A stretch of 39,824 nucleotides of DNA from the IMG/VR virus record IMGVR_UViG_3300012010_000001, positions 1 through 39,824 of that record. The stretch is one strand, 5' to 3'. The notes beneath the pieces were generated by a model, which did no database searches, had not been told where the DNA came from, and worked only from the letters and a program-made list of their open reading frames with translations. Below, in pieces: positions 1,339 to 12,646 of the stretch. A program made the translations under genes and the position numbers. The first letter of the stretch is position 1. Each line of letters starts with the position of its first letter. This DNA is from a virus.

Positions 1339-1965
1339 ATGGCCGTCGCCGCACGCCAGCCGCTTCTCTTCTTTGTACCGCCGAGCGTCGTTGAGCCCGT
1401 GAAGGGCCGCAAGCTCCCAAAGTTCCTCTCAGAGGCCGAGCAGGAGCGGCTGGAAGCCGTAGCGGAGCACTCGGGCCCGCGCGACCTGGCGCTGGTGCTC
1501 TGCACGACACGCGCCGGGCTGCGTTGCTCTGAGGTCTGCGCGTTGCGCTGGAAGCACGTCGAGGACGGGCGCGTCCAGGTGGAGCAGGGCAAGGGAGGCA
1601 AGGACAGAGTTATCCCCATGCACGCGCGGCTCTCTGGGGCTCTCGAAGCAGTGCGATTTCTATTACAAAATCGCACTCAGATAGACCGCGAGGGCTACAT
1701 CTTCGCCGGCCGCGGTCCCGGCTCGCACCTGACGGTCAGCGGCGCCGAACGCATCATGGCGCGACTGGGCCGCGCCGCCGGTCTGCCGGGAGAGAAGCGC
1801 CATCCACACGCCGGACGTCACGGCTTCGCGGTGTCGCTCTTGGAAGCCGGCAACGACGTCCGGCGCATCCAGCAGCTGCTCGGGCACTCGTCGCTGGCGA
1901 CCACGATGGTCTACCTCGACCTCACCGCCGAACACCTGCGGTCCGCGGTCGATTCGCTGCGGTGA
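1339..1965 (+). CDS. int: Tyrosine recombinase / integrase (catalytic domain only)
   Basis: Catalyses site-specific integration and, with partners, excision. The 208-residue protein carries the catalytic set in order: Arg62 (AGLRCSE), Lys88 (GGKDRVIP), His157 and Arg160 (HPHAGRH), His183 (LLGHSSLATT) and Tyr192 (MVYLDLT). It lacks the N-terminal SAM-like core-binding and arm-binding domains; most phage integrases are 350-400 residues. The frame is closed upstream by a TGA at 1291-1293, so no longer start is available. ATG 1339 has no Shine-Dalgarno. It is followed by a perfect palindrome that separates it from the convergent minus-strand genes. It could be an XerC/D-like minimal recombinase. 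Confidence 0.9.
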   Translation: MAVAARQPLLFFVPPSVVEPVKGRKLPKFLSEAEQERLEAVAEHSGPRDLALVLCTTRAGLRCSEVCALRWKHVEDGRVQVEQGKGGKDRVIPMHARLSGALEAVRFLLQNRTQIDREGYIFAGRGPGSHLTVSGAERIMARLGRAAGLPGEKRHPHAGRHGFAVSLLEAGNDVRRIQQLLGHSSLATTMVYLDLTAEHLRSAVDSLR

Positions 1966-1983
1966 TATAACAATTTTGTTATA
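1966..1983. terminator. Perfect palindrome between convergent genes
   Basis: TATAACAA-TT-TTGTTATA is an exact inverted repeat of 8 bp arms. It starts directly after the integrase stop and contains the TAA stop of the minus-strand gene (1979-1981). Its position and symmetry suit a bidirectional terminator, although the stem is AT-rich and weak. Confidence 0.45.
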
Positions 1984-2545
1984 ACGCACCCCGCTCCCTC
2001 AGCCAGTCCAGGGCGTCGAAGTTGACCTCCGCCCGCGCCTTGATGGCGTCCTCTATCGCCTTCGCTGGGACTACCACTAATCCCACGAACCCCCACCCAA
2101 TCTCTAACCACTTGTGCAGTGTCCGCTTGTCCAGAATTCCGTGAAGCATCATAAAACGCTCCTCAGCCGGGCCGATGTGGCGCCAGCCGTGCTCGGCCTC
2201 AAACCGGGAACGGCCACGGACGCAGATATCGTCAATCGCGCGGGCGTAGAGCTCGCCGCCCAGACAAAAGTCCGGCAAGAGCGCGAAGCCGCGGCGCAGT
2301 TGCGCCAGCAGCTCGGCGACGGCCGCCCTGTTTTCGAGCTGATAGTCGGCCTGCCCGGCGTTATGATCCCATGCAGCGACCTGCCTATCGGTGGGACCTG
2401 ACTCCGGCCTCGCATGGCCGACCTGCATAAACGACGTGCTGGACAAGTCGGGGTCGGGCACCCGCCGGCGGCTGTCGTGGCGCAGGGCGAGCGTGATGTG
2501 AGTTTGGTGGTGAGCGGCGGCAGCGATCGACGGAAAGACCGGCAC
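1979..2545 (-). CDS. Conserved-looking lysogeny-region protein, unknown function
   Basis: Read on the minus strand from a GTG at 2545, one base after the stop of the upstream gene, giving 188 residues; an internal ATG at 2428 would give 149. The C-terminal 150 residues look like a folded protein (ENRAAVAELLAQLRRGFALL, then ICVRGRSRFEAEHGWRH and MLHGILDKRTLHKWLEIG). No catalytic motif is recognised. It is the last gene of the minus-strand group headed by the repressor, so it is probably expressed in the lysogen. Function unknown. Confidence 0.6.
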   Translation of the reverse strand: MPVFPSIAAAAHHQTHITLALRHDSRRRVPDPDLSSTSFMQVGHARPESGPTDRQVAAWDHNAGQADYQLENRAAVAELLAQLRRGFALLPDFCLGGELYARAIDDICVRGRSRFEAEHGWRHIGPAEERFMMLHGILDKRTLHKWLEIGWGFVGLVVVPAKAIEDAIKARAEVNFDALDWLRERGAL

Positions 2546-2546
2546 G

Positions 2547-2768
2547 TCAGGCCGCGTGGTCGGCGAACGCGGCAAAGAGCGCGAGCAGCAAATCCGGCTC
2601 GCCCCAGACGAGGAGATTACGGGCGCTGTAGGAGCGCTCGAAGCCGCCACAGTCGCAGACAACGGAGAGTCGGTCGCTGTGCTTACGGCGATAGATGCCG
2701 ATGGTGTGGCCGTTGACCGGCTCCTCGTCGGCCCAGGCCACTGTCCAATCGTCGTCCGTCGCGCCCAT
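2547..2768 (-). CDS. Hypothetical 73-residue protein
   Basis: Minus-strand ORF starting at ATG 2768 (MGATDDDWTVAWADEEPVN). The middle contains CDCGGFERSYSARNLLVWG, with a C-x-C-G-G pair; the last third is helical (LLLALFAAFADHAA). No Shine-Dalgarno is seen, so it may be leaderless or read from a promoter in the AT-rich stretch just upstream (2769-2850). The next gene begins one base after its stop. Function unknown. Confidence 0.55.
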   Translation of the reverse strand: MGATDDDWTVAWADEEPVNGHTIGIYRRKHSDRLSVVCDCGGFERSYSARNLLVWGEPDLLLALFAAFADHAA

Positions 2769-2809
2769 AACTGCGTATACATTATCGGGCCGCAGGTAGG
2801 ATTTAGATA

Positions 2810-2835
2810 GTAGCTATAGACGGCTTCTATGCTAC
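2810..2835. other. AT-rich hairpin between minus-strand genes
   Basis: GTAGC-T-ATAG...CTAT-GCTAC forms a 9 bp stem with one bulged T and a 7 base loop. It lies in an AT-rich island within otherwise GC-rich DNA, between the stop of the 72-residue gene and the start of the 73-residue gene. It may be a terminator or an operator. Confidence 0.35.
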
Positions 2836-2852
2836 ATAAGAAATGCCCGGGC

Positions 2853-3071
2853 TCAGTGGTAGAGCTTCGAAGCCTCCAGGAGCAGCGCCGCCTCGTGGCC
2901 GGTGATGCCGGGGATGCGCCGCTTGAGGATCGCCACCGAGAGGGTAGCGGGGTGGGCCTGGCGCAGCGCACAGGCGCACAGCACGAGGCAGGCGGGGCAG
3001 AACGGCATCAGCCCGTCGCAGATGCAGTCGAGCGGACGCGGTTGCCAGTTCTGGGGCGACTTCACTCCCAT
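2853..3071 (-). CDS. Cys-rich hypothetical protein
   Basis: A 72-residue minus-strand ORF from ATG 3071. The N-terminal half is cysteine-rich (LDCICDGLMPFCPACLVLCAC) and could form a small metal site; the C-terminal half reads ILKRRIPGITGHEAALLLEAS. The closest purine-rich sequence (GGGGGAG) lies about 16 bases before the ATG, too far to be ideal. It sits downstream of the repressor on the same strand. The last codons overlap a stretch that matches a tRNA D-arm by chance or descent. Function unknown. Confidence 0.5.
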   Translation of the reverse strand: MGVKSPQNWQPRPLDCICDGLMPFCPACLVLCACALRQAHPATLSVAILKRRIPGITGHEAALLLEASKLYH

Positions 3072-3151
3072 AGCGTTCTGGTAGATGCTCCCCCGGTCGG
3101 TTCGTTGCAGTGGGCGGGAAATGTGTTCGAACTATAACTGATCCGTGTAAA

Positions 3152-3177
3152 GTCCGGCGTCTTTTTCAGACACGGAC
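3152..3177 (-). terminator. Hairpin after the repressor gene
   Basis: Read on the minus strand, GTCCG...CGGAC forms the outer stem and a further short pairing closes a loop of A residues, followed by CTTTAC. It begins 14 bases after the repressor stop and could end or attenuate the repressor transcript. The U-run is poor. Confidence 0.4.
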
Positions 3178-3190
3178 CTCACATTATGTT

Positions 3191-3424
3191 TCAGCCAGCG
3201 CGAGCACCTTGGCGGGCTTCCTTGCGCACCATCCCTACTATGTCGGCAATCGGTTTACCGGTCGCCTCTGAGATGAGACCACAGCGCTCCACGTCGGGCA
3301 GGCGCGACCCACGTAGATAGTGAGCTATCGTGGACTGCTTCGTCCCGAAAGCTACTGCCATCTGTTCCTGGGTTTCGTACACGCTGTCCTCCAAGAGCGA
3401 CCGCAGCCATTCGCGGAAGCTCAT
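3191..3424 (-). CDS. XRE-family repressor (CI-like)
   Basis: Helix-turn-helix protein of 77 residues from ATG 3424 (MSFREWLRSLLEDS). The HTH is visible in ETQEQMAVAFGTKQSTIAHYLRGSRLPDVER, with the usual Q...A...G..QSTI..YL pattern; the C-terminus (ISEATGKPIADIVGM) is short, so no dimerisation/autocleavage domain is present. An upstream in-frame start at 3454 exists but lies in the promoter. No ribosome binding site precedes ATG 3424 and a -10 sits about 9-14 bases upstream, so the message is probably leaderless, as in many prophage repressors. It is divergent from the Cro-like gene and is the likely lysogeny switch. Confidence 0.8.
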   Translation of the reverse strand: MSFREWLRSLLEDSVYETQEQMAVAFGTKQSTIAHYLRGSRLPDVERCGLISEATGKPIADIVGMVRKEARQGARAG

Positions 3425-3513: not shown

Positions 3514-3553
3514 TTGCATTCGCAATTTAGGTAGGCTATCGTTGCGAGTGCAA
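3514..3553 (+). promoter_or_regulatory. Early promoter flanked by two TTGC-N4-GCAA operators
   Basis: Two 12 bp palindromes, TTGCATTCGCAA (3514-3525) and TTGCGAGTGCAA (3542-3553), share the half-site TTGC and lie 28 bp apart centre to centre. The first covers a -35-like TTGCAT; TATCGT (3537-3542) is 17 bases downstream. Binding to either site would block the early promoter. The 3554-3588 stretch to the start of the Cro-like gene forms the leader. The AT-rich spacer 3460-3510 completes the divergent control region. Confidence 0.6.
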
Positions 3554-3588: not shown

Positions 3589-3789
3589 GTGGTCGTGGAC
3601 TTGAATTTCACCCCGCAGAGAATCAAGGCCCTCCGCGAACGGATGGGGCTGAACCAGACGGATTTCGCGAAAGAGGTAGGCGTAGACCAGAGCACGTTGT
3701 CGCTGTGGGAGTCCGGCGGTCGCAGCCCCGTAGGCCAGCGCGTCCTACAGCGCCTCTTCGAGCTGGACGCGGAGCCCGCCGGTGCCTGA
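3589..3789 (+). CDS. Cro-like XRE regulator
   Basis: A 66-residue HTH protein: FTPQRIKALRERMGLNQTDF then AKEVGVDQSTLSLWESGGRSP, a textbook XRE domain with the recognition helix at QSTLSLWE. The start is set at GTG 3589 because GGAAGGAG (3574-3581) lies 7 bases before it; the upstream ATGs at 3553 and 3559 have no ribosome binding site, and the first overlaps an operator. It is divergent from the repressor and the first gene of the early operon, so it probably acts as Cro. It overlaps the next gene. Confidence 0.8.
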   Translation: MVVDLNFTPQRIKALRERMGLNQTDFAKEVGVDQSTLSLWESGGRSPVGQRVLQRLFELDAEPAGA

Positions 3790-4015
3790 TCGATTCGACT
3801 GGGGACGCGATCCGGTGAAGAACCGCGCACATCAAGCGGTATTGCGTGCCGTCAAAGCTGGCCGGCTAGTCACTCCCGACACGTGCTCGGAATGTAGTCA
3901 GGTCGCGTGGGTAGTTGCTCACCATGATGACCACTCGAAGCCTCTGGACGTGCGCTGGCTCTGCCGCCGCTGCCACGCGCTGCACCACTTCGCGCTGCGA
4001 CAGGCGGCAGCGTAG
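3782..4015 (+). CDS. Zinc-finger / HNH-like small phage protein
   Basis: 77 residues from GTG 3782, overlapping the Cro-like gene. The central motif C-SE-C (TCSECSQ), then VVAHHDDHSKPLDVRWLCRRCHALHH, shows two Cys pairs and a run of His/Asp residues that resembles an HNH-type zinc fold; catalytic activity is uncertain. It may be a DNA-binding or nuclease accessory of early replication. Its TAG overlaps the GTG of the interrupted gene that follows (TAGTG). Confidence 0.65.
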   Translation: MPDRFDWGRDPVKNRAHQAVLRAVKAGRLVTPDTCSECSQVAWVVAHHDDHSKPLDVRWLCRRCHALHHFALRQAAA

Positions 4016-4104
4016 TGGGTAGGCTTCCCGGCGGCCAGAACGGCGAGGGCGCGCCGACGTACAACGCGAAGCTGGACGGCTGCGAGGTCGCGCCGACCTG
4101 CCTG
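4015..4104 (+). pseudogene. 5' fragment of an HTH gene cut by an HNH cassette
   Basis: GTG 4015 overlaps the previous stop (TAGTG), as expected of a working operon gene. Thirty codons follow, ending GCEVAPTCL. The intact-looking gene at 4670 has the parallel string GCEISKLCQLCPLPRCRYE after a similar start (GxNGxxxxY). Here the reading changes exactly where the minus-strand HNH stop codon begins (4105). The most economical reading is an old 5' end left behind when the cassette inserted. The frame stays open to 4677, so a chimeric product is possible but meaningless in sequence. Confidence 0.5.
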
Positions 4105-4641
4105 TTAGACGAAAGCGCCTTTCACTCGATGCCTATGGCGCTGCGAATGCTTGTCAAGAAACTGCCGGGGTCTCCCGCTCGCGTCGTACTTCAGCAACTG
4201 TTTACCACAACCACACGCGCACGCTATTTGTTCGTTTGGCTCGCCAGATTTGCGGCGGCGCGAGTCGGCGGTGCGATGCGCAGCCTTGTGTTCTTGCTCA
4301 GTGAGCAACAGCAAGTTCTCGGGGCGATTATCCGTCTTGTCATGGTTCACGTGGTGGACGTGTTCGCCGGCCAGGGGCCGACCAACAATCTGTCGCATGA
4401 CCCACACGTGCTCCCGCATCCGGCCTTCTGGCGTCCAGATGCGCACGTAGCCGCCGCTATCAATGCGTCGCTCCCCGCCACGCCATTGAGGATGAGTCGG
4501 ACCGGAGCGCGTTGGGCGAGTGGCGGCATTGGCGCATCTGACACTGCAGAACCGGCGCGGCTGACTGACTCGTGCTTGCGTGAAATCGCGACCGCACGAG
4601 GCGCAAGTAACAATCGGGCGGGTCAGCATGGGGCGTCCCAT
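4105..4641 (-). CDS. HNH homing endonuclease with N- and C-terminal zinc fingers
   Basis: 178 residues from ATG 4641; an upstream GTG (4692) would overlap the plus-strand HTH gene. The domains in order are: zinc finger CASCGRDF...RRFCSVRC (residues about 11-36), NUMOD-like stretch (GGYVRIWTPEGR) and the HNH core EHVHHVNHDKTDNRPENL with EHKAAHR. A C-terminal cysteine motif (ACACGCGKQL...GRPRQFLDKH) follows. This is the layout of free-standing phage homing endonucleases of the HNH_3 type. It is on the strand opposite to the early operon and splits it. Lower GC than its neighbours suggests separate origin. Confidence 0.85.
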   Translation of the reverse strand: MGRPMLTRPIVTCASCGRDFTQARVSQPRRFCSVRCANAATRPTRSGPTHPQWRGGERRIDSGGYVRIWTPEGRMREHVWVMRQIVGRPLAGEHVHHVNHDKTDNRPENLLLLTEQEHKAAHRTADSRRRKSGEPNEQIACACGCGKQLLKYDASGRPRQFLDKHSQRHRHRVKGAFV

Positions 4642-4744
4642 ATAGCTACATTCTACAGAGGGCACGGTTATGCCTAAAGGCCCAAATGGCACACCGGTTT
4701 ACTACCAAGATACCGGGTGTGAAATCTCGAAATTGTGCCAACTT
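4105..4744 (-). mobile_element. Putative homing-endonuclease cassette carrying a replacement 5' gene end
   Basis: Boundaries are inferred. The left edge is where the interrupted gene loses similarity (4104/4105). The right edge is where the downstream copy changes from AT-leaning codons (AAA, AAT, ACA, GAT, GAA, TTG, CAA, CTT) to the GC-rich codons typical of the phage (CCG CTG CCC CGC), near 4744. The cassette would contain the HNH gene plus about 25 codons that restore the target gene. Confidence 0.4.
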
Positions 4745-4921
4745 TGCCCGCTGCCCCGCTGCCGCTACGAGGAGCCGAACGGCATCCGGTCAGCCGTCAA
4801 CGCCCCCCGCAACGCGCAGATCATCGAGGCTCGCTCTCTCGGCGTACCGACGTACCTGCTGACCGAGCACTTCGGGATCAGCCTGCGGCAATTCCGGCAC
4901 ATCACGCAGGTAACCGCTTGA
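4670..4921 (+). CDS. Cys-motif HTH protein (rebuilt after insertion)
   Basis: 83 residues from ATG 4670. The N-terminus has a cysteine cluster (GCEISKLCQLCPLPRCRYEE) and the C-terminus a helix-turn-helix (NAQIIEARSLGVPTYLLTEHF, then GISLRQFRHI) like those in sigma region 4 or resolvase tails. It probably binds DNA and may regulate the early operon. The first 25 codons use more A/T than the rest, consistent with replacement by the endonuclease cassette. From 4922 to 5104 I see no convincing gene, apart from a weak 65-codon frame from TTG 4918. Confidence 0.65.
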   Translation: MPKGPNGTPVYYQDTGCEISKLCQLCPLPRCRYEEPNGIRSAVNAPRNAQIIEARSLGVPTYLLTEHFGISLRQFRHITQVTA

Positions 4922-7970: not shown

Positions 7971-8173
7971 GCGACTGGGCACCGGACCCGGCTCGCGTGT
8001 ATCTCGATCGCGTCGAGGCGATGCGCTTTCTGAACGTGGAGCCGGAGTGGTGGAACGCCAACCGGCCGCAGAGGATGCGCAGCGCGGGCGGACGCGGCAA
8101 CGCGGCGCTGTACCGCCTGGCGGACCTGCTGCCGGTGCTGGCCAAGGCACCCGCGCGGCTGGGGGCGGCGTGA
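7967..8173 (+). CDS. Small winged-helix-like protein
   Basis: 68 residues from a GTG that overlaps the previous TGA. The pattern RVEAMRFLNVEPEWWNANRP followed by NAALYRLADLLPVLAKA resembles MerR/excisionase-type winged helices, so an accessory DNA-binding role such as excisionase is possible. Its TGA overlaps the ATG of the helicase-methyltransferase (TGATG). Confidence 0.6.
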   Translation: MSDWAPDPARVYLDRVEAMRFLNVEPEWWNANRPQRMRSAGGRGNAALYRLADLLPVLAKAPARLGAA

Positions 8174-10425
8174 TGGCGTACGCCGACTTCCTCGCACAGA
8201 AGATCGCCATCAACCATGGCGACGGGATCACAGTCGAGGACGCCGACATCAACCCCATCCTGTTCCCGTTCCAACGCGACCTGACGCGATGGGCGCTCCG
8301 GAAAGGACGAAGCGCCATCTTCGCCGACACGGGGCTCGGCAAGACGTTCATGCAGGTGGAGTGGGCACGGTTGACCGGCGAGCGAGTTCTGATAGCTGCC
8401 CCGTTGTCCGTGGCGCGTCAGACGGTGGCTGAGGCCGCAAGGCTCGGCGTCAGGGTGACGTATGCGCGGGGTCAGGTCGACGCAGGGCAGTTGACGATTA
8501 CGAATTACGAGATGCTCGACCACTTCGATGCCTCACAGTTCGGAGCGGTCGTGCTGGACGAATCGTCAATACTCAAAAGCTACGACGGCAAGACACGCAC
8601 AAAGCTAATCGAGCAATTCGGCAGGACTCCACTGAGACTGTGCTGCACGGCAACTCCGGCGCCCAACGATATCGCGGAGCTCGCCAACCATGCCGAGTTC
8701 CTGGGCATCCTGACGCGTGCCGAGATGCTCGCTTCGTTCTTCGTTCACGATGACGAGGGGTGGAGGCTAAAGGGCCATGCTCGGGAGCCGTTCTATCAGT
8801 GGCTGGCGTCGTGGGGGATGACGCTGAAAACGCCGAGCGACTTGGGATACTCCGACGACGGCTACATTCTGCCCGGCCTCGAGATCGTGCCGCACATCAT
8901 CAAGGTTGACTACGCTCCTCCGGGGCAGATGCTGTTCACGAAACTGAAGGGCATCGGCGACCGTTCGGCGGTCCGGAGAGAGACGCTTGCGGAGCGCGTT
9001 GAACGAGCGGCGGGACTCATCAATGAATCAGACGAGCCGTGGATAGCGTGGGTGGGGCTGAATCAGGAGGGAGTCGACCTAGCTGCGCTGATTGAGGATT
9101 GCGTTTTAATCGAAGGCTCGCAGTCGCCCGAGAGCAAGGCCGAACGGCTAGAGAAATTCCTTGACGGCAAGGTGCGCGTCATGGTGAGCAAAGTGGCCAT
9201 AAGCGGATATGGATTGAACCTGCAGCGCTGCGCGCGCATGGTGTTCGTCGGCCTGTCGGACTCGTACGAGCAGTATTACCAGGCGATCCGCAGATGCTAT
9301 CGCTTCGGCCAGACGCAGAAGGTCGAGGCGCACATCGTCATCACAGAACCAGAGGAGGCAGTCTATGAGAACGTGCTACGCAAAGAACGCGAAGCCGACG
9401 AGATGACCCGCAAGCTAGTCCGTGAAGCGGCGAACTACGAGAAGGCCGAGATAGCGGATGGACGTCAGACGTTCACGTACCAGGAGCGCGAAGAGACAGG
9501 CGATGGCTGGCGGATGATGCTGGGCGACTCTGCAGAGCGCTTGAAGGCTCTCCCGGACGACTCCGTTGATCTGAGTGTGTTCTCGCCGCCGTTCATGTCT
9601 TTGTACACGTACTCGGCGACGGAGCGCGATCTCGGCAACGCCCAGAACCCGGCCGAGTTTTGGGAGCACTTTAATTACATCATCCCCGAACTTCTGCGGG
9701 TCACCAAGCCGGGACGGAATGTCGCCGTCCACGTCGCACAAGTGACAACGACTCTAGCAAGTCAAGGAGTTATCGGGCTGGTGGATTTCCGGGGCGAGAC
9801 GATCCGTGCGTTTATCGATCAAGGGTTCGTCTATCACGGCGAGGTATGCATCGACAAGAACCCGCAGGCGCAAGCAATTAGGACTCATTCCAAGGCGCTT
9901 CTGTTCGCGCAACTCCGCAAAGATTCGGCATGGCTCCGGCCCGCGCTGGCGGACTACATTCTCGTGTTCCGTAAGCGGGGAGAGAACCTCGTAGTGATTC
10001 ACCCAGACCTCACGAACAACGAATGGATTGAGTGGGCGCGCCCTATTTGGTACGGCATCAAGGAATCCGACACGCTGAGCGTGGCTGAGGCAAGGTCGGA
10101 GGAAGACGAGCGCCACATGTGCGCGCTGCAACTGGGCACAATCGAGCGCTGCGTCCGGCTCTGGTCGAACAAGGGCGAGACGGTGCTCAGTCCGTTCGCG
10201 GGCATCGGCTCAGAAGGATATGAGGCGCTACGTCATGGCCGAAAGTACATCGGGATCGAACTCAAGCCGGAATACTGGGAAGTCGCTATCAGGAACCTCA
10301 AGCGAGCCGAAGCCAACAATCGCGACCTCTTCTCCTACGCCAACGGAGACGTGCCAGTCGTGCCCGCTAACGGAGCGGTTCACGATATCCCTGACCGGCG
10401 AGCAGGTCGTGATCTGCGTGTGTGA
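8173..10425 (+). CDS. SNF2-like helicase / DNA methyltransferase fusion
   Basis: 750 residues. Helicase half: Walker A ADTGLGKT (51-58), DES in VVLDESS (129-132), TATPAPND (159-166) and motif VI QAIRRCYRFGQ near 370, all as in SNF2-type translocases. Methyltransferase half: SPPF near 469 (catalytic motif IV) and SPFAGIGSEG near 674 (AdoMet motif I), followed by GRKYIGIELKPEYWEVA. The order IV before I points to a beta-type N6-adenine or N4-cytosine enzyme. No nuclease domain is present, so it is not a full type ISP restriction enzyme. It may modify phage DNA while translocating; resemblance to phage anti-restriction helicase-methylases is inference. Confidence 0.85.
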   Translation: MAYADFLAQKIAINHGDGITVEDADINPILFPFQRDLTRWALRKGRSAIFADTGLGKTFMQVEWARLTGERVLIAAPLSVARQTVAEAARLGVRVTYARGQVDAGQLTITNYEMLDHFDASQFGAVVLDESSILKSYDGKTRTKLIEQFGRTPLRLCCTATPAPNDIAELANHAEFLGILTRAEMLASFFVHDDEGWRLKGHAREPFYQWLASWGMTLKTPSDLGYSDDGYILPGLEIVPHIIKVDYAPPGQMLFTKLKGIGDRSAVRRETLAERVERAAGLINESDEPWIAWVGLNQEGVDLAALIEDCVLIEGSQSPESKAERLEKFLDGKVRVMVSKVAISGYGLNLQRCARMVFVGLSDSYEQYYQAIRRCYRFGQTQKVEAHIVITEPEEAVYENVLRKEREADEMTRKLVREAANYEKAEIADGRQTFTYQEREETGDGWRMMLGDSAERLKALPDDSVDLSVFSPPFMSLYTYSATERDLGNAQNPAEFWEHFNYIIPELLRVTKPGRNVAVHVAQVTTTLASQGVIGLVDFRGETIRAFIDQGFVYHGEVCIDKNPQAQAIRTHSKALLFAQLRKDSAWLRPALADYILVFRKRGENLVVIHPDLTNNEWIEWARPIWYGIKESDTLSVAEARSEEDERHMCALQLGTIERCVRLWSNKGETVLSPFAGIGSEGYEALRHGRKYIGIELKPEYWEVAIRNLKRAEANNRDLFSYANGDVPVVPANGAVHDIPDRRAGRDLRV

Positions 10426-11276
10426 TCTATGACCCGTTGGAGAGATGGCGGAGACAGCCGCGGCGGCGAGCAAAAGTAAGGCGGTGGATATTGAAATGGA
10501 CACTGATAGCGCTGATCGCGCTGGCGATCACGGCGGGAGCGAAAGCTGATGGTCAGGACGTGCAAATCGTGCGGGCAGATCGACTGGTACTGGACGCCCC
10601 TGTGCAAGCGGTGCGGGGTCCCGTACCCGGTGAGGACGGCCTAGATGGCGGTCCTGGTGACCCTTACCGAGGCGGAGGCCGAGCTGGCGTTGCGGGCACT
10701 TGGGAGCCAGATTGTTCAGTGCCATTCCGCGATTGCGACCTGCCTGAATTGTCAACGGCTGCAGCGAATGATGACCAAAATACGGCGGGCCATGGTGGCA
10801 GCCTAGATGGCTACCCTTCTCGACTGGTCGCCCATGCTGCTCCTGATACCGACGCTGTGGCTGCTACGCCTGACGCTACCTCAACTTCGCCGCCCGTCGT
10901 CCCGGACGCTGGTGGAGCGGCCACCGCGACGCCTGACCCCGGAGGCACGGACGCCGGCGGCGTGGTTTCCGGCGCGTTCGAGGCGATCATCTGCTCCGAG
11001 CCCTGGCCTTGTGGTGAAGCGATTTCCGTGGCTCGATGCGAGTCTGGAACCGACGTTCGAGGCCGTCTCGACGGGAACTTCGCTAGCAACGGAGACAACT
11101 ACGGGCTGTTCCAGCTCAACAGCATCCACGCCGGACTCTGGCCCGACTTCTGGGCAGCCTGGAGCGACCCCGTGAGGAACACCGCATGGGCCTTCGAGAT
11201 CTGGTCAGAAGCTGGTGGCACGTTCTGGCCCGACTGGCGCGGCTCCTCGGCCTGCTGGCAGGGGTGGACGCCGTGA
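10422..11276 (+). CDS. Secreted lysozyme/transglycosylase-like protein
   Basis: 284 residues from a GTG overlapping the previous stop. A signal peptide is visible: basic start (RRRAKVRRW), hydrophobic core (TLIALIALAITAG) and an AKA cleavage site near residue 43. A Gly/Asp-rich part, then a Pro/Thr/Ala linker (about 130-185) leads to a lysozyme-like domain: ARCESG (probable catalytic Glu), DNYGLFQLNSIH, and a WAFEIWSEAGGTFWPDW end. It sits among early DNA genes, not with the lysis module. The middle (10549-10806) overlaps two small ORFs whose codon usage looks stronger, so either dual coding or a different start must be considered. Confidence 0.6.
   Translation: MIYDPLERWRRQPRRRAKVRRWILKWTLIALIALAITAGAKADGQDVQIVRADRLVLDAPVQAVRGPVPGEDGLDGGPGDPYRGGGRAGVAGTWEPDCSVPFRDCDLPELSTAAANDDQNTAGHGGSLDGYPSRLVAHAAPDTDAVAATPDATSTSPPVVPDAGGAATATPDPGGTDAGGVVSGAFEAIICSEPWPCGEAISVARCESGTDVRGRLDGNFASNGDNYGLFQLNSIHAGLWPDFWAAWSDPVRNTAWAFEIWSEAGGTFWPDWRGSSACWQGWTP
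10549..10644 (+). CDS. Nested 31-residue zinc ribbon (alternative frame)
   Basis: MVRTCKSCGQIDWYWTPLCK then RCGVPYPV: C-x2-C-G twice, 15 residues apart. By my count 30 of 31 codons end in G or C, against 19 of 31 in the lysozyme frame. Its ATG overlaps the TGA of a 34-codon ORF (10445-10549) and its TAG is followed immediately by the next ATG. Composition says this frame is coding; the conflict with the lysozyme frame is unresolved. Confidence 0.5.
   Translation: MVRTCKSCGQIDWYWTPLCKRCGVPYPVRTA
10645..10806 (+). CDS. Nested 53-residue protein (alternative frame)
   Basis: Starts directly after the TAG of the zinc ribbon and ends with TAG followed directly by another ATG (10807). It reads as a helical protein with three cysteines (LTEAEAELALRALGSQIVQC; ATCLNCQRLQRMMTKIRRAM). 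About 74% of codons end in G/C here against 47% in the lysozyme frame. A further frame from 10807 starts with a membrane helix (MATLLDWSPMLLLIPTLWLL) before losing coding character. Confidence 0.5.
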   Translation: MAVLVTLTEAEAELALRALGSQIVQCHSAIATCLNCQRLQRMMTKIRRAMVAA

Positions 11277-12646
11277 GGCATTTCGCAGCGATGTACCGCA
11301 ATAAACCAACTTTCCTGTCACTCTTTTCGGGGGTAGGCGGCTTTGATTTAGGTCTTGAGCAAGCGGGTTGGCGTTGCGTTGCCCAGTGCGAGATCGACCC
11401 GTTCCGGCAGCGGGTGCTTGAGCATCACTGGCCGGGAGTGGAGAGGTTTGACGATGTGCGAGCACTCAGTTTTCCACGAGAACATCGACGGGAAGATATA
11501 CGAATCGCCAGAGGTGCCAGCGTTGCGGAACTTCCAGAAGGACGCACCGCTAGTGATGGCGGTCAGCGAGAACCAGCGCGGCGAAATCGTGACAACGGCG
11601 CAAGCGCATCAACTGACGACGGGCGGCGGCAAGCCGGGCCAGGGCTACGCGGCGGTGTTGACCTCATCTGCGGCGGGTTCCCGTGCCAAGACCTTAGCGT
11701 CGCCGGAAAGCGGGCTGGGCTTTCTGGCGCCCGATCCGGCCTCTTCTGGGAGTTTGCCCGAATCGCTGGCGAGGTACGGCCCACGTGGCTCCTCATCGAG
11801 AATGTTCCCGGACTCCTTAGCTCAAACGGAGGGGGCGATTTTGCGCTCATCCTTGGCGCGCTGGATGAACTCGGGTATGGGTGGGCCTACCGGATACTCG
11901 ACTCTCGATTCTTCGGAGTCCCCCAGAGGCGGCGTCGCGTCTACGTTGTCGGACATTCTAGCGGACGCATCGACTATCCCGCCTCGGTACTATTTGAGCG
12001 CGAGAGCGGCGGCGGGGATACTGAGGCGAGTGGCCAGACGGGGGAAGATGTTGCCTACGCGCTTGGCGCAAGCGTTGGACGCTCTAGCAAGGGGAACCGA
12101 ATCGGCAACGCCTGGAATAGCACCTACGTCTCCCACTCGCTCAGGGCGCAGCCGAACAGCAGCCACCGCGAAGACAGCGAGACCTACGTCCCCGAAGTCT
12201 CGCCAGCCGTCACGTCGAAGTGGCGCAAAGGCAGCGGAGGCCCGAGCGGCGACGAAGCGCAGAACCTCATCGCCGGAACCGTCACAGGTTCGGAAGCGCA
12301 CAACGGCAACTCGCGGCCCATCCCAGACAACTACGTGACGGCGATCCAGGACGCGCGCGGTCATCGGGAGAAGGCGCAGAACGGTATCGGGATTACGGAG
12401 AACGCCGACGCCATGTACACGATAGACAAGGTGAGCCGCCACGGCATCCAGCACGCCCAGACGGTGCGCCGCCTCACGCCTACGGAGTGCGAGCGGCTAC
12501 AGGGCTTCCCTGACGGCTGGACGGACATACCGGACGCGAAGGACGGGCCGCGCTACGCCGCGATGGGCGATGCGGTCACGGTGCCGGTGATTCGCTGGTT
12601 AGGCGAACGGATGACCCTTGCACAGCGATCGGAGGTGCGCGTATAG
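11273..12646 (+). CDS. dcm: DNA (cytosine-5) methyltransferase with insert
   Basis: 457 residues from GTG 11273, overlapping the lysozyme-like stop; ATG 11291 is an alternative. Methylates C5 of cytosine. Motif I FSGVGGFDLGLEQAG (about 17-31), motif IV GGFPCQDLS with the catalytic Cys near 135, ENVPG (motif VI) near 174, QRRRRVYVVGH (motif VIII), a variable target-recognition stretch, RRLTPTECERLQGFPDGWT (motif IX) and AMGDAVTVPV (motif X). Between DVRAL and VDLICGG there are about 60 extra residues (SFPREHRRED...GPGLRGG) where about 10 are usual. That part has poor codon usage in this frame. It may protect phage DNA together with the helicase-methyltransferase. Confidence 0.85.
   Translation: MRHFAAMYRNKPTFLSLFSGVGGFDLGLEQAGWRCVAQCEIDPFRQRVLEHHWPGVERFDDVRALSFPREHRREDIRIARGASVAELPEGRTASDGGQREPARRNRDNGASASTDDGRRQAGPGLRGGVDLICGGFPCQDLSVAGKRAGLSGARSGLFWEFARIAGEVRPTWLLIENVPGLLSSNGGGDFALILGALDELGYGWAYRILDSRFFGVPQRRRRVYVVGHSSGRIDYPASVLFERESGGGDTEASGQTGEDVAYALGASVGRSSKGNRIGNAWNSTYVSHSLRAQPNSSHREDSETYVPEVSPAVTSKWRKGSGGPSGDEAQNLIAGTVTGSEAHNGNSRPIPDNYVTAIQDARGHREKAQNGIGITENADAMYTIDKVSRHGIQHAQTVRRLTPTECERLQGFPDGWTDIPDAKDGPRYAAMGDAVTVPVIRWLGERMTLAQRSEVRV
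11454..12338 (+). CDS. Overlapping ORF inside the methyltransferase gene
   Basis: ATG 11454 follows GGAGAGG by 7 bases. In 11454-11670 about 80% of codons end in G/C in this frame against about 42% in the methyltransferase frame, so this frame was selected there. The product includes VSENQRGEIVTTAQAHQLTT then GGGKPGQGYAAVL, which recalls the variable region of phage cytosine methyltransferases. Further on it has SGMGGPTGYSTLDSSESP, then TLSDILADASTIPPRYYLSA and AAAGILRRVARRGKMLP. From memory, the latter motif recurs in small phage proteins near methyltransferases. The last 80 residues are low-complexity and look non-coding. Confidence 0.4.
   Translation: MCEHSVFHENIDGKIYESPEVPALRNFQKDAPLVMAVSENQRGEIVTTAQAHQLTTGGGKPGQGYAAVLTSSAAGSRAKTLASPESGLGFLAPDPASSGSLPESLARYGPRGSSSRMFPDSLAQTEGAILRSSLARWMNSGMGGPTGYSTLDSSESPRGGVASTLSDILADASTIPPRYYLSARAAAGILRRVARRGKMLPTRLAQALDALARGTESATPGIAPTSPTRSGRSRTAATAKTARPTSPKSRQPSRRSGAKAAEARAATKRRTSSPEPSQVRKRTTATRGPSQTTT

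Follow-up and report, generated by a model that had tools for sequence, protein, structure and literature searches.

A putative HNH homing cassette that replaces the 5' end of its target gene in a phage

Several mobile endonuclease genes are known to bring with them a replacement for part of the gene they enter. With each entry, the WHO elements of Torulaspora and Lachancea yeasts give FBA1 a new 3' end (PMC7282813), and mitochondrial mobile ORFs (mORFs) of Allomyces (atp6) and Glomus (atp6, atp9, cox2 and nad3) bring a new C-terminal part of the gene (PMC3630166). In Tremella, mitochondrial genes contain introns with N-terminal duplications (PMC7315562). Among phages, the nrdA gene of Aeh1 entered by mobE stays split into two polypeptides that reassemble (PMC2988022). 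The methylase insert of mycobacteriophage ShiLan contains an out-of-frame HNH gene (195 aa) whose GTG start lies 18 bases inside the insert and whose end reads TAAC; the first 11 residues of the insert resemble those just after it, which the authors weighed as a possible intron signature, and in uninvaded methylases the first residue at the site is proline (PMC11855218).

Here we describe a phage locus in which an endonuclease gene is flanked on one side by a displaced remnant of a target gene and on the other by a full, rebuilt copy of that gene. We consider it probable that positions 4105 to about 4742 constitute an HNH homing cassette, composed of a minus-strand endonuclease gene and a diverged replacement 5' end of the target.

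The divided gene and its family

The window (the whole stretch of DNA analysed) is an IMG/VR virus record of 39,824 bases, with an XRE-type gene at 3553 within the early-gene operon of its 5' part. The following features of this operon are relevant here:

3782 to 4015, plus strand: small endonuclease gene resembling phrog_2340 (1.3e-20), the upstream operon neighbour
4015 to 4104, plus strand: head A, the native 5' end of the split Cys/HTH target gene and displaced remnant (R2); GC3 0.93
4105 to 4692, minus strand: HNH endonuclease ORF, 195 aa from the GTG at 4692 (Pfam HNH_3, 2.6e-11; phrog_20891, 7.7e-20)
4657 to 4662, plus strand: AGAGGG, Shine-Dalgarno-like on reading the sequence, 7 nt before the ATG at 4670
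4670 to 4744, plus strand: head B, the putative replacement 5' segment (copy R1); GC3 about 0.5, change point at 4745
4745 to 4921, plus strand: tail, the native remainder of the target gene (PLPRCRYE..., HTH), by GC3 (0.86) and family similarity

An earlier note on this DNA had described the gene at 4015 as beginning in an operon overlap and breaking off after codon 30 at the HNH stop. Both statements hold, and the coordinates are all correct: the TAG stop of the 3782 gene overlaps the GTG at 4015, head A (translation VGRLPGGQNGEGAPTYNAKLDGCEVAPTCL) ends at 4104 right after its "CL", and the TTA directly 3' of it (4105-4107) is the reversed TAA stop of the minus-strand HNH ORF. The ORF at 4670-4921 reads MPKGPNGTPVYYQDTGCEISKLCQLCPLPRCRYE, followed by the HTH region. 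Its head B runs from the start codon through the second Cys of the motif and the linker and, if imported, carries its own predicted ribosome-binding site, AGAGGG.

Two further genes of the window may be mentioned. The ORF at 8047-10425 (plus strand) joins SNF2/DEAD-type helicase parts to an N6/N4 DNA methylase domain, an arrangement conserved in about 50 IMG/VR loci, and the protein of 11186-12646 (plus strand) has FLSLFSGVGGFDLGLEQA, which by eye resembles motif I of C5-cytosine DNA methyltransferases and makes it a candidate.

The target gene belongs to a well-defined family. A degenerate DNA scan of IMG/VR for CxxCPLPxCxY[DE] gave 66 loci, nearly all of which share the layout D-x-GC-x5-CL-x-CPLP-x-C-x-Y-[DE] followed by an HTH; a profile from the IMG/VR family loci matches ORF 4670 at 3e-20. 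The best 80 matches in bacterial genomes are almost all from Chloroflexota, with a single copy at each locus, and across about 145 loci examined there is one family copy per locus and a tandem pair in none. Since the bacterial matches of the target family are almost all from Chloroflexota, the host of the phage is, judging from sequence similarity, probably a bacterium of this phylum. Proteins with D-x-GC-x5-CLxCPLPxCxYD and an HTH are very common in Chloroflexota (Dehalococcoidia, SAR202, Tepidiforma, Thermoflexus and others) and in their viruses. Typical members contain Pfam HTH_23/HTH_7 domains, and the Cys part of the members scanned matched no Pfam or NCBIfam model of its own; the family is a candidate lineage-specific regulator. 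An AF2 model of ORF 4670 (pLDDT 83) has helices at residues 39-56, 61-68 and 72-82, forming a three-helix C-terminal domain, for which Foldseek found no significant match in PDB. Neither ORF 4670 nor the window DNA had a match in a phage collection, and searches of IMG/VR for close relatives of ORF 4670, of the HNH protein and of the fused protein found none.

The identity of head A was assessed with a PSSM of the family head (12 columns), scored on all six-frame 12-mers of the window. The stretch LDGCEVAPTCLL (4072) ranked first of 79,578 12-mers with 22.3 bits, followed by the motif of ORF 4670 itself (18.0 bits), the third place having 11.1 bits. Over all the loci gathered, about 3.6 million 12-mers, head A was the sole convincing head without a CPLP half; of the four other matches above 14 bits, three were family members containing a small insertion and the fourth was a chance match of 14.4 bits. 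These scores confirm, at the level of predicted protein sequence, the identity of 4015-4104 as the 5' end of a small Cys-cluster/HTH gene. The length of head A, only 30 codons, was counted against the cassette reading.

Composition separates the parts of the locus: GC3 is high in head A (0.93) and the tail (0.86), intermediate in the HNH gene (0.67) and lowest in head B (0.50). The earlier note had read the 4670 gene as an AT-leaning equivalent start followed by the GC-rich family remainder, and had proposed codon and GC analysis around the break. The values for head B and the tail bear this reading out, and the best GC3 change point within ORF 4670 lies at codon 25/26 (4745; permutation p=0.0036), which is also the homologous break position. 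Over the first 24 codons, GC3 is lower in ORF 4670 than in any other of the 40 window genes (0.46; mean 0.75, sd 0.10). Heads A and B are identical at 10 of 24 aligned amino acids (about 42%) and 37 of 72 nucleotides, and either one resembles other family members more than its counterpart. Because of this low identity and these closer ties elsewhere, head B is a diverged version and not a fresh duplication, and to judge from its codons it was probably imported. The divergence was counted against an immediate common ancestry of the two heads. Microhomology at the junction was also considered and dropped, as it amounts to just 5 nt, a chance-level length.

The state of the locus in the absence of the nuclease gene can be seen in IMGVR_UViG_3300026273_000001 (43,294 bases), which shares several genes with the window (5685 at 66%, 36557 at 56-58%, 38889 and 10807). 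In this record a homologue of the 3782 gene (50% identical, 72 aa) stands directly upstream of one intact Cys gene with an overlapping start, MTVTSHDAIDWVYPDNGCPDVSDSCFTCPLPICRYDVPGG..., with no HNH gene between the two. Head A is syntenic with the start of this gene, and no second Cys gene was found anywhere in the record. A single, uninterrupted gene therefore appears to be the native arrangement at this place in the operon. The similarity detected by blastn to this gene begins at window position 4744, which is consistent with the proposed break but weak, because the matched stretch is the conserved motif. In the relative, the Cys module (L071, 308-796, minus strand; also L220) is joined to an HTH of the DnaA domain IV type (DnaA_C, PF08299, 1.2e-9) and not to the usual HTH_23 type. 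The relative's gene therefore cannot be taken as a plain empty allele of the divided one, and the Cys module also appears to recombine without HNH, swapping its DNA-binding partners.

The earlier note had proposed that the cassette split the gene and restored its 5' end, and that HNH-free relatives should be compared. Much of this stands: there is one family with no tandem loci, the break falls at a homologous codon, and a distant relative has one intact gene at the operon position. The part which did not find a counterpart is the reconstructed gene, given the DnaA_C tail of that relative and the fact that the exact fusion of head A with the tail (PLPRCRYEEPNGIRSAVN) occurs nowhere in the collections searched; a near-identical empty allele was not found in them either. 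A weak tblastn match of the fused query in one locus, from a comparison of window genes with ERF and helicase loci, proved to lie in another gene, in an antisense frame, and was discarded. Among 400 Chloroflexota genomes there was no relative of the adjacent 5685 gene.

The nuclease and its phage relatives

In the HNH ORF, zinc fingers flank an intact HNH motif, EHVHHVNHDKTDNRPENL. Translation is more likely to start at the ATG at 4641 or 4629 than at the GTG at 4692. Rfam revealed no intron around the ORF even at E<=1, and a group I intron-encoded endonuclease was rejected, as no self-splicing RNA structure was detected. An ORF without intron or intein splicing parts fits a free-standing phage homing endonuclease gene of the mob type. 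The nearest annotated relatives are gp74 of phiH (41% over 81%) and the HNH proteins hidden in methylases of the mycobacteriophages ShiLan, Mantra, Bipolar and others (35% over 89-93%); relatives also occur in 6 of 400 Chloroflexota genomes. No convincing target copy was present at the three Chloroflexota loci (of the six) with a readable HNH frame, nor beside the relatives in phiH, Soul22, YMC P54, ctDrO704 and Navo.

When repeats flanking HNH genes were sought blindly, the window scored 29 (null fraction 0.30), short of significance by score alone; the best pair in the window was exactly head A and head B. In a stricter scan Mantra separated best and ShiLan marginally. An all-frame version of the scan was swamped by low-complexity matches and was abandoned. 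Another hidden HNH frame is present in Mycobacterium phage Hannaconda (Omegavirus; locus L232, 2240-2875), out of frame in an annotated DNA methylase (1758-3281) of a different type, with no flanking copy obvious by eye.

Re-examination of the ShiLan-type inserts revealed a feature which connects them with the window. In ShiLan, Mantra (mycobacterial phages) and Cr-LKS3 (cyanobacterial), all with inserts at the same methylase site, the first 12 amino acids of the insert match the 12 that follow it (BLOSUM62 scores of 34, 43 and 23, respectively), the next best position in each whole protein scoring 13, 13 and 15. The inserts (methylase genes of L224, 2900-3505, L226 and L227) therefore start with a diverged copy of the methylase segment lying 3' of the insert. 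Along the nuclease gene's own direction, flank and copy (R1) come first, then the HNH gene, whose start is within or beside R1, and last the displaced original (R2); flank plus R1 rebuilds the native junction. R1 starts with P in all three, and the displaced copy starts with T in ShiLan and with S in Mantra. The order in the window is identical: tail, head B, HNH gene, head A.

Possible histories of the locus

On the reading that we favour, the cassette would have inserted itself into a regulator gene of the Cys-cluster/HTH type, at the codon that precedes CPLPxCxY. We infer that the uninterrupted gene is the substrate of the HNH enzyme, with cleavage near the CL/CPLP codon, and that repair from an invaded genome would copy the nuclease gene together with the adjacent replacement head, using homology in head and tail. 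On the left the exchange would fall within the resident head and leave it behind as a remnant; on the right it would fall within the tail, linking this to the new head. In this way the cassette head (start codon, ribosome-binding site and 25 codons) would join the resident tail in frame to give the full gene at 4670-4921, and the original head of 30 codons would be left beyond the nuclease gene as the remnant at 4015-4104. The rebuilt junction might resist cutting because the codons of head B have diverged, and the event would have little cost to the phage because the regulator would still be made.

Other histories might also account for the layout. There may once have been two tandem paralogues, the first deprived of its tail by the HNH gene or by an indel, and the second being an ordinary complete gene with AT-rich 5' codons by chance. 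Gene starts in the window are often slightly poorer in GC3 (mean 0.75 vs 0.79), and the quite strong divergence of the two heads would suit old paralogues. This explanation is nevertheless unlikely, considering that two copies occur in none of the roughly 145 family loci, that IMGVR_UViG_3300026273_000001 has a single gene at this place, and that the AT-leaning stretch, the most extreme of the 40 genes, ends exactly at the homologous break codon. Alternatively, the HNH gene, as a passenger, might have been imported in one block with a whole foreign Cys/HTH gene beside the resident gene, whose tail was later deleted. The occurrence of the Cys module with different HTH modules, such as DnaA_C in the relative, indicates that such genes move and recombine, and the GC3 of the HNH gene (0.67) is also unlike that of the phage. 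However, by GC3 the tail (0.86) matches the resident codon bias, as does head A (0.93) but not head B (0.50), and a separate deletion ending exactly at the nuclease stop would be required, which makes this history very improbable.

We give the least credence to the idea that 4015-4104 encodes a small truncated protein, or a leader, with a function of its own, that no insertion was involved and that the layout is coincidental. Formally, the plus-strand ORF of 4015 runs on to 4677, for 220 aa in all, and its 8-base overlap with the 4670 start makes translational coupling conceivable. A special open frame across the antisense HNH gene was rejected, however, since openness there is expected with a probability of about 0.25. 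Moreover, no other convincing orphan head was present in the 3.6 million 12-mers, and the syntenic relative has the full gene.

Returning to the cassette reading, a wider proposal can be put forward tentatively: one class of phage HNH genes may move as "nuclease plus replacement target segment", swapping one end of the target, restoring the gene and leaving a remnant, with the ShiLan-type inserts and the window cassette as two stages or forms of this process. We hold this to be possible but somewhat doubtful; a second complete phage example of a rebuilt target was not found.

Comparison with known homing systems

A close parallel in organization is provided by the WHO elements (PMC7282813), which likewise combine an endonuclease gene with a replacement target segment, and whose entry rebuilds the target and displaces the old segment beyond the nuclease gene. 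They differ in belonging to the yeast nuclear genome, in encoding an intein-derived protein of the LAGLIDADG type, and in replacing the 3' end of their target, FBA1, whereas the window cassette is a phage element with an antisense HNH gene and a replaced 5' end. An HO-homologous, intein-derived endonuclease of the LAGLIDADG type is absent from the window cassette, in which only Pfam HNH_3 was detected. Because the type of nuclease differs, the cassette is not a member of the WHO family. The fungal mORFs also resemble the window, with an endonuclease ORF in the gene and a diverged foreign copy of the gene end giving a hybrid gene, and in the Tremella cases it is the N-terminal part that is replaced, as in the window. 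Unlike the window cassette, these elements are mitochondrial and involve LAGLIDADG or GIY-YIG nucleases (Glomus) or predicted introns (Tremella).

Within phages, the T4-type mob genes are comparable as HNH homing genes which split a coding region, but insertions such as mobE carry no replacement segment (PMC2988022). The ShiLan domain shares several features with the window: a homologous HNH protein (35% over 89%) with flanking zinc fingers, an ORF of 195 aa, a GTG start, a TAA stop followed by C, and insertion at a conserved codon of a phage gene, the break in the window lying directly before CPLPxCxY. Unlike the antisense gene of the window, the ShiLan HNH gene lies on the sense strand of its target, out of frame, and the target reads through the insert in frame. 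In the window, the frame of 4015 is not that of the tail and ends at 4677. Moreover, the copied segment of the ShiLan-type elements has about 12 recognisable residues and yields no separate restored gene; in the window R1 reaches back to the start codon and ribosome-binding site, and a complete gene therefore results. The statement of the earlier note that no phage case of this form was known must accordingly be narrowed, as the homologous ShiLan-domain elements have the same order with a short target copy; it stands with regard to the rebuilding of a separate gene, for which no published phage case was found in the freely accessible literature.

If the cassette reading is true, a rare and mainly fungal mode of homing, in which part of the target is replaced and the gene is kept working, extends to phages and to HNH enzymes. 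It would explain how a homing gene without an intron can occupy a coding region without killing the gene, would point to a source of chimeric phage regulators, and would offer a different reading of the ShiLan-domain inserts. It also predicts that a displaced target remnant lies beside the stop codon of the nuclease gene and that the restored gene contains a composition break.

To conclude, the homology of its nuclease suggests that the window cassette belongs near the ShiLan-type elements. The nearest known kinds are fungal, and a partial version is present in known mycobacterial and cyanobacterial phages.
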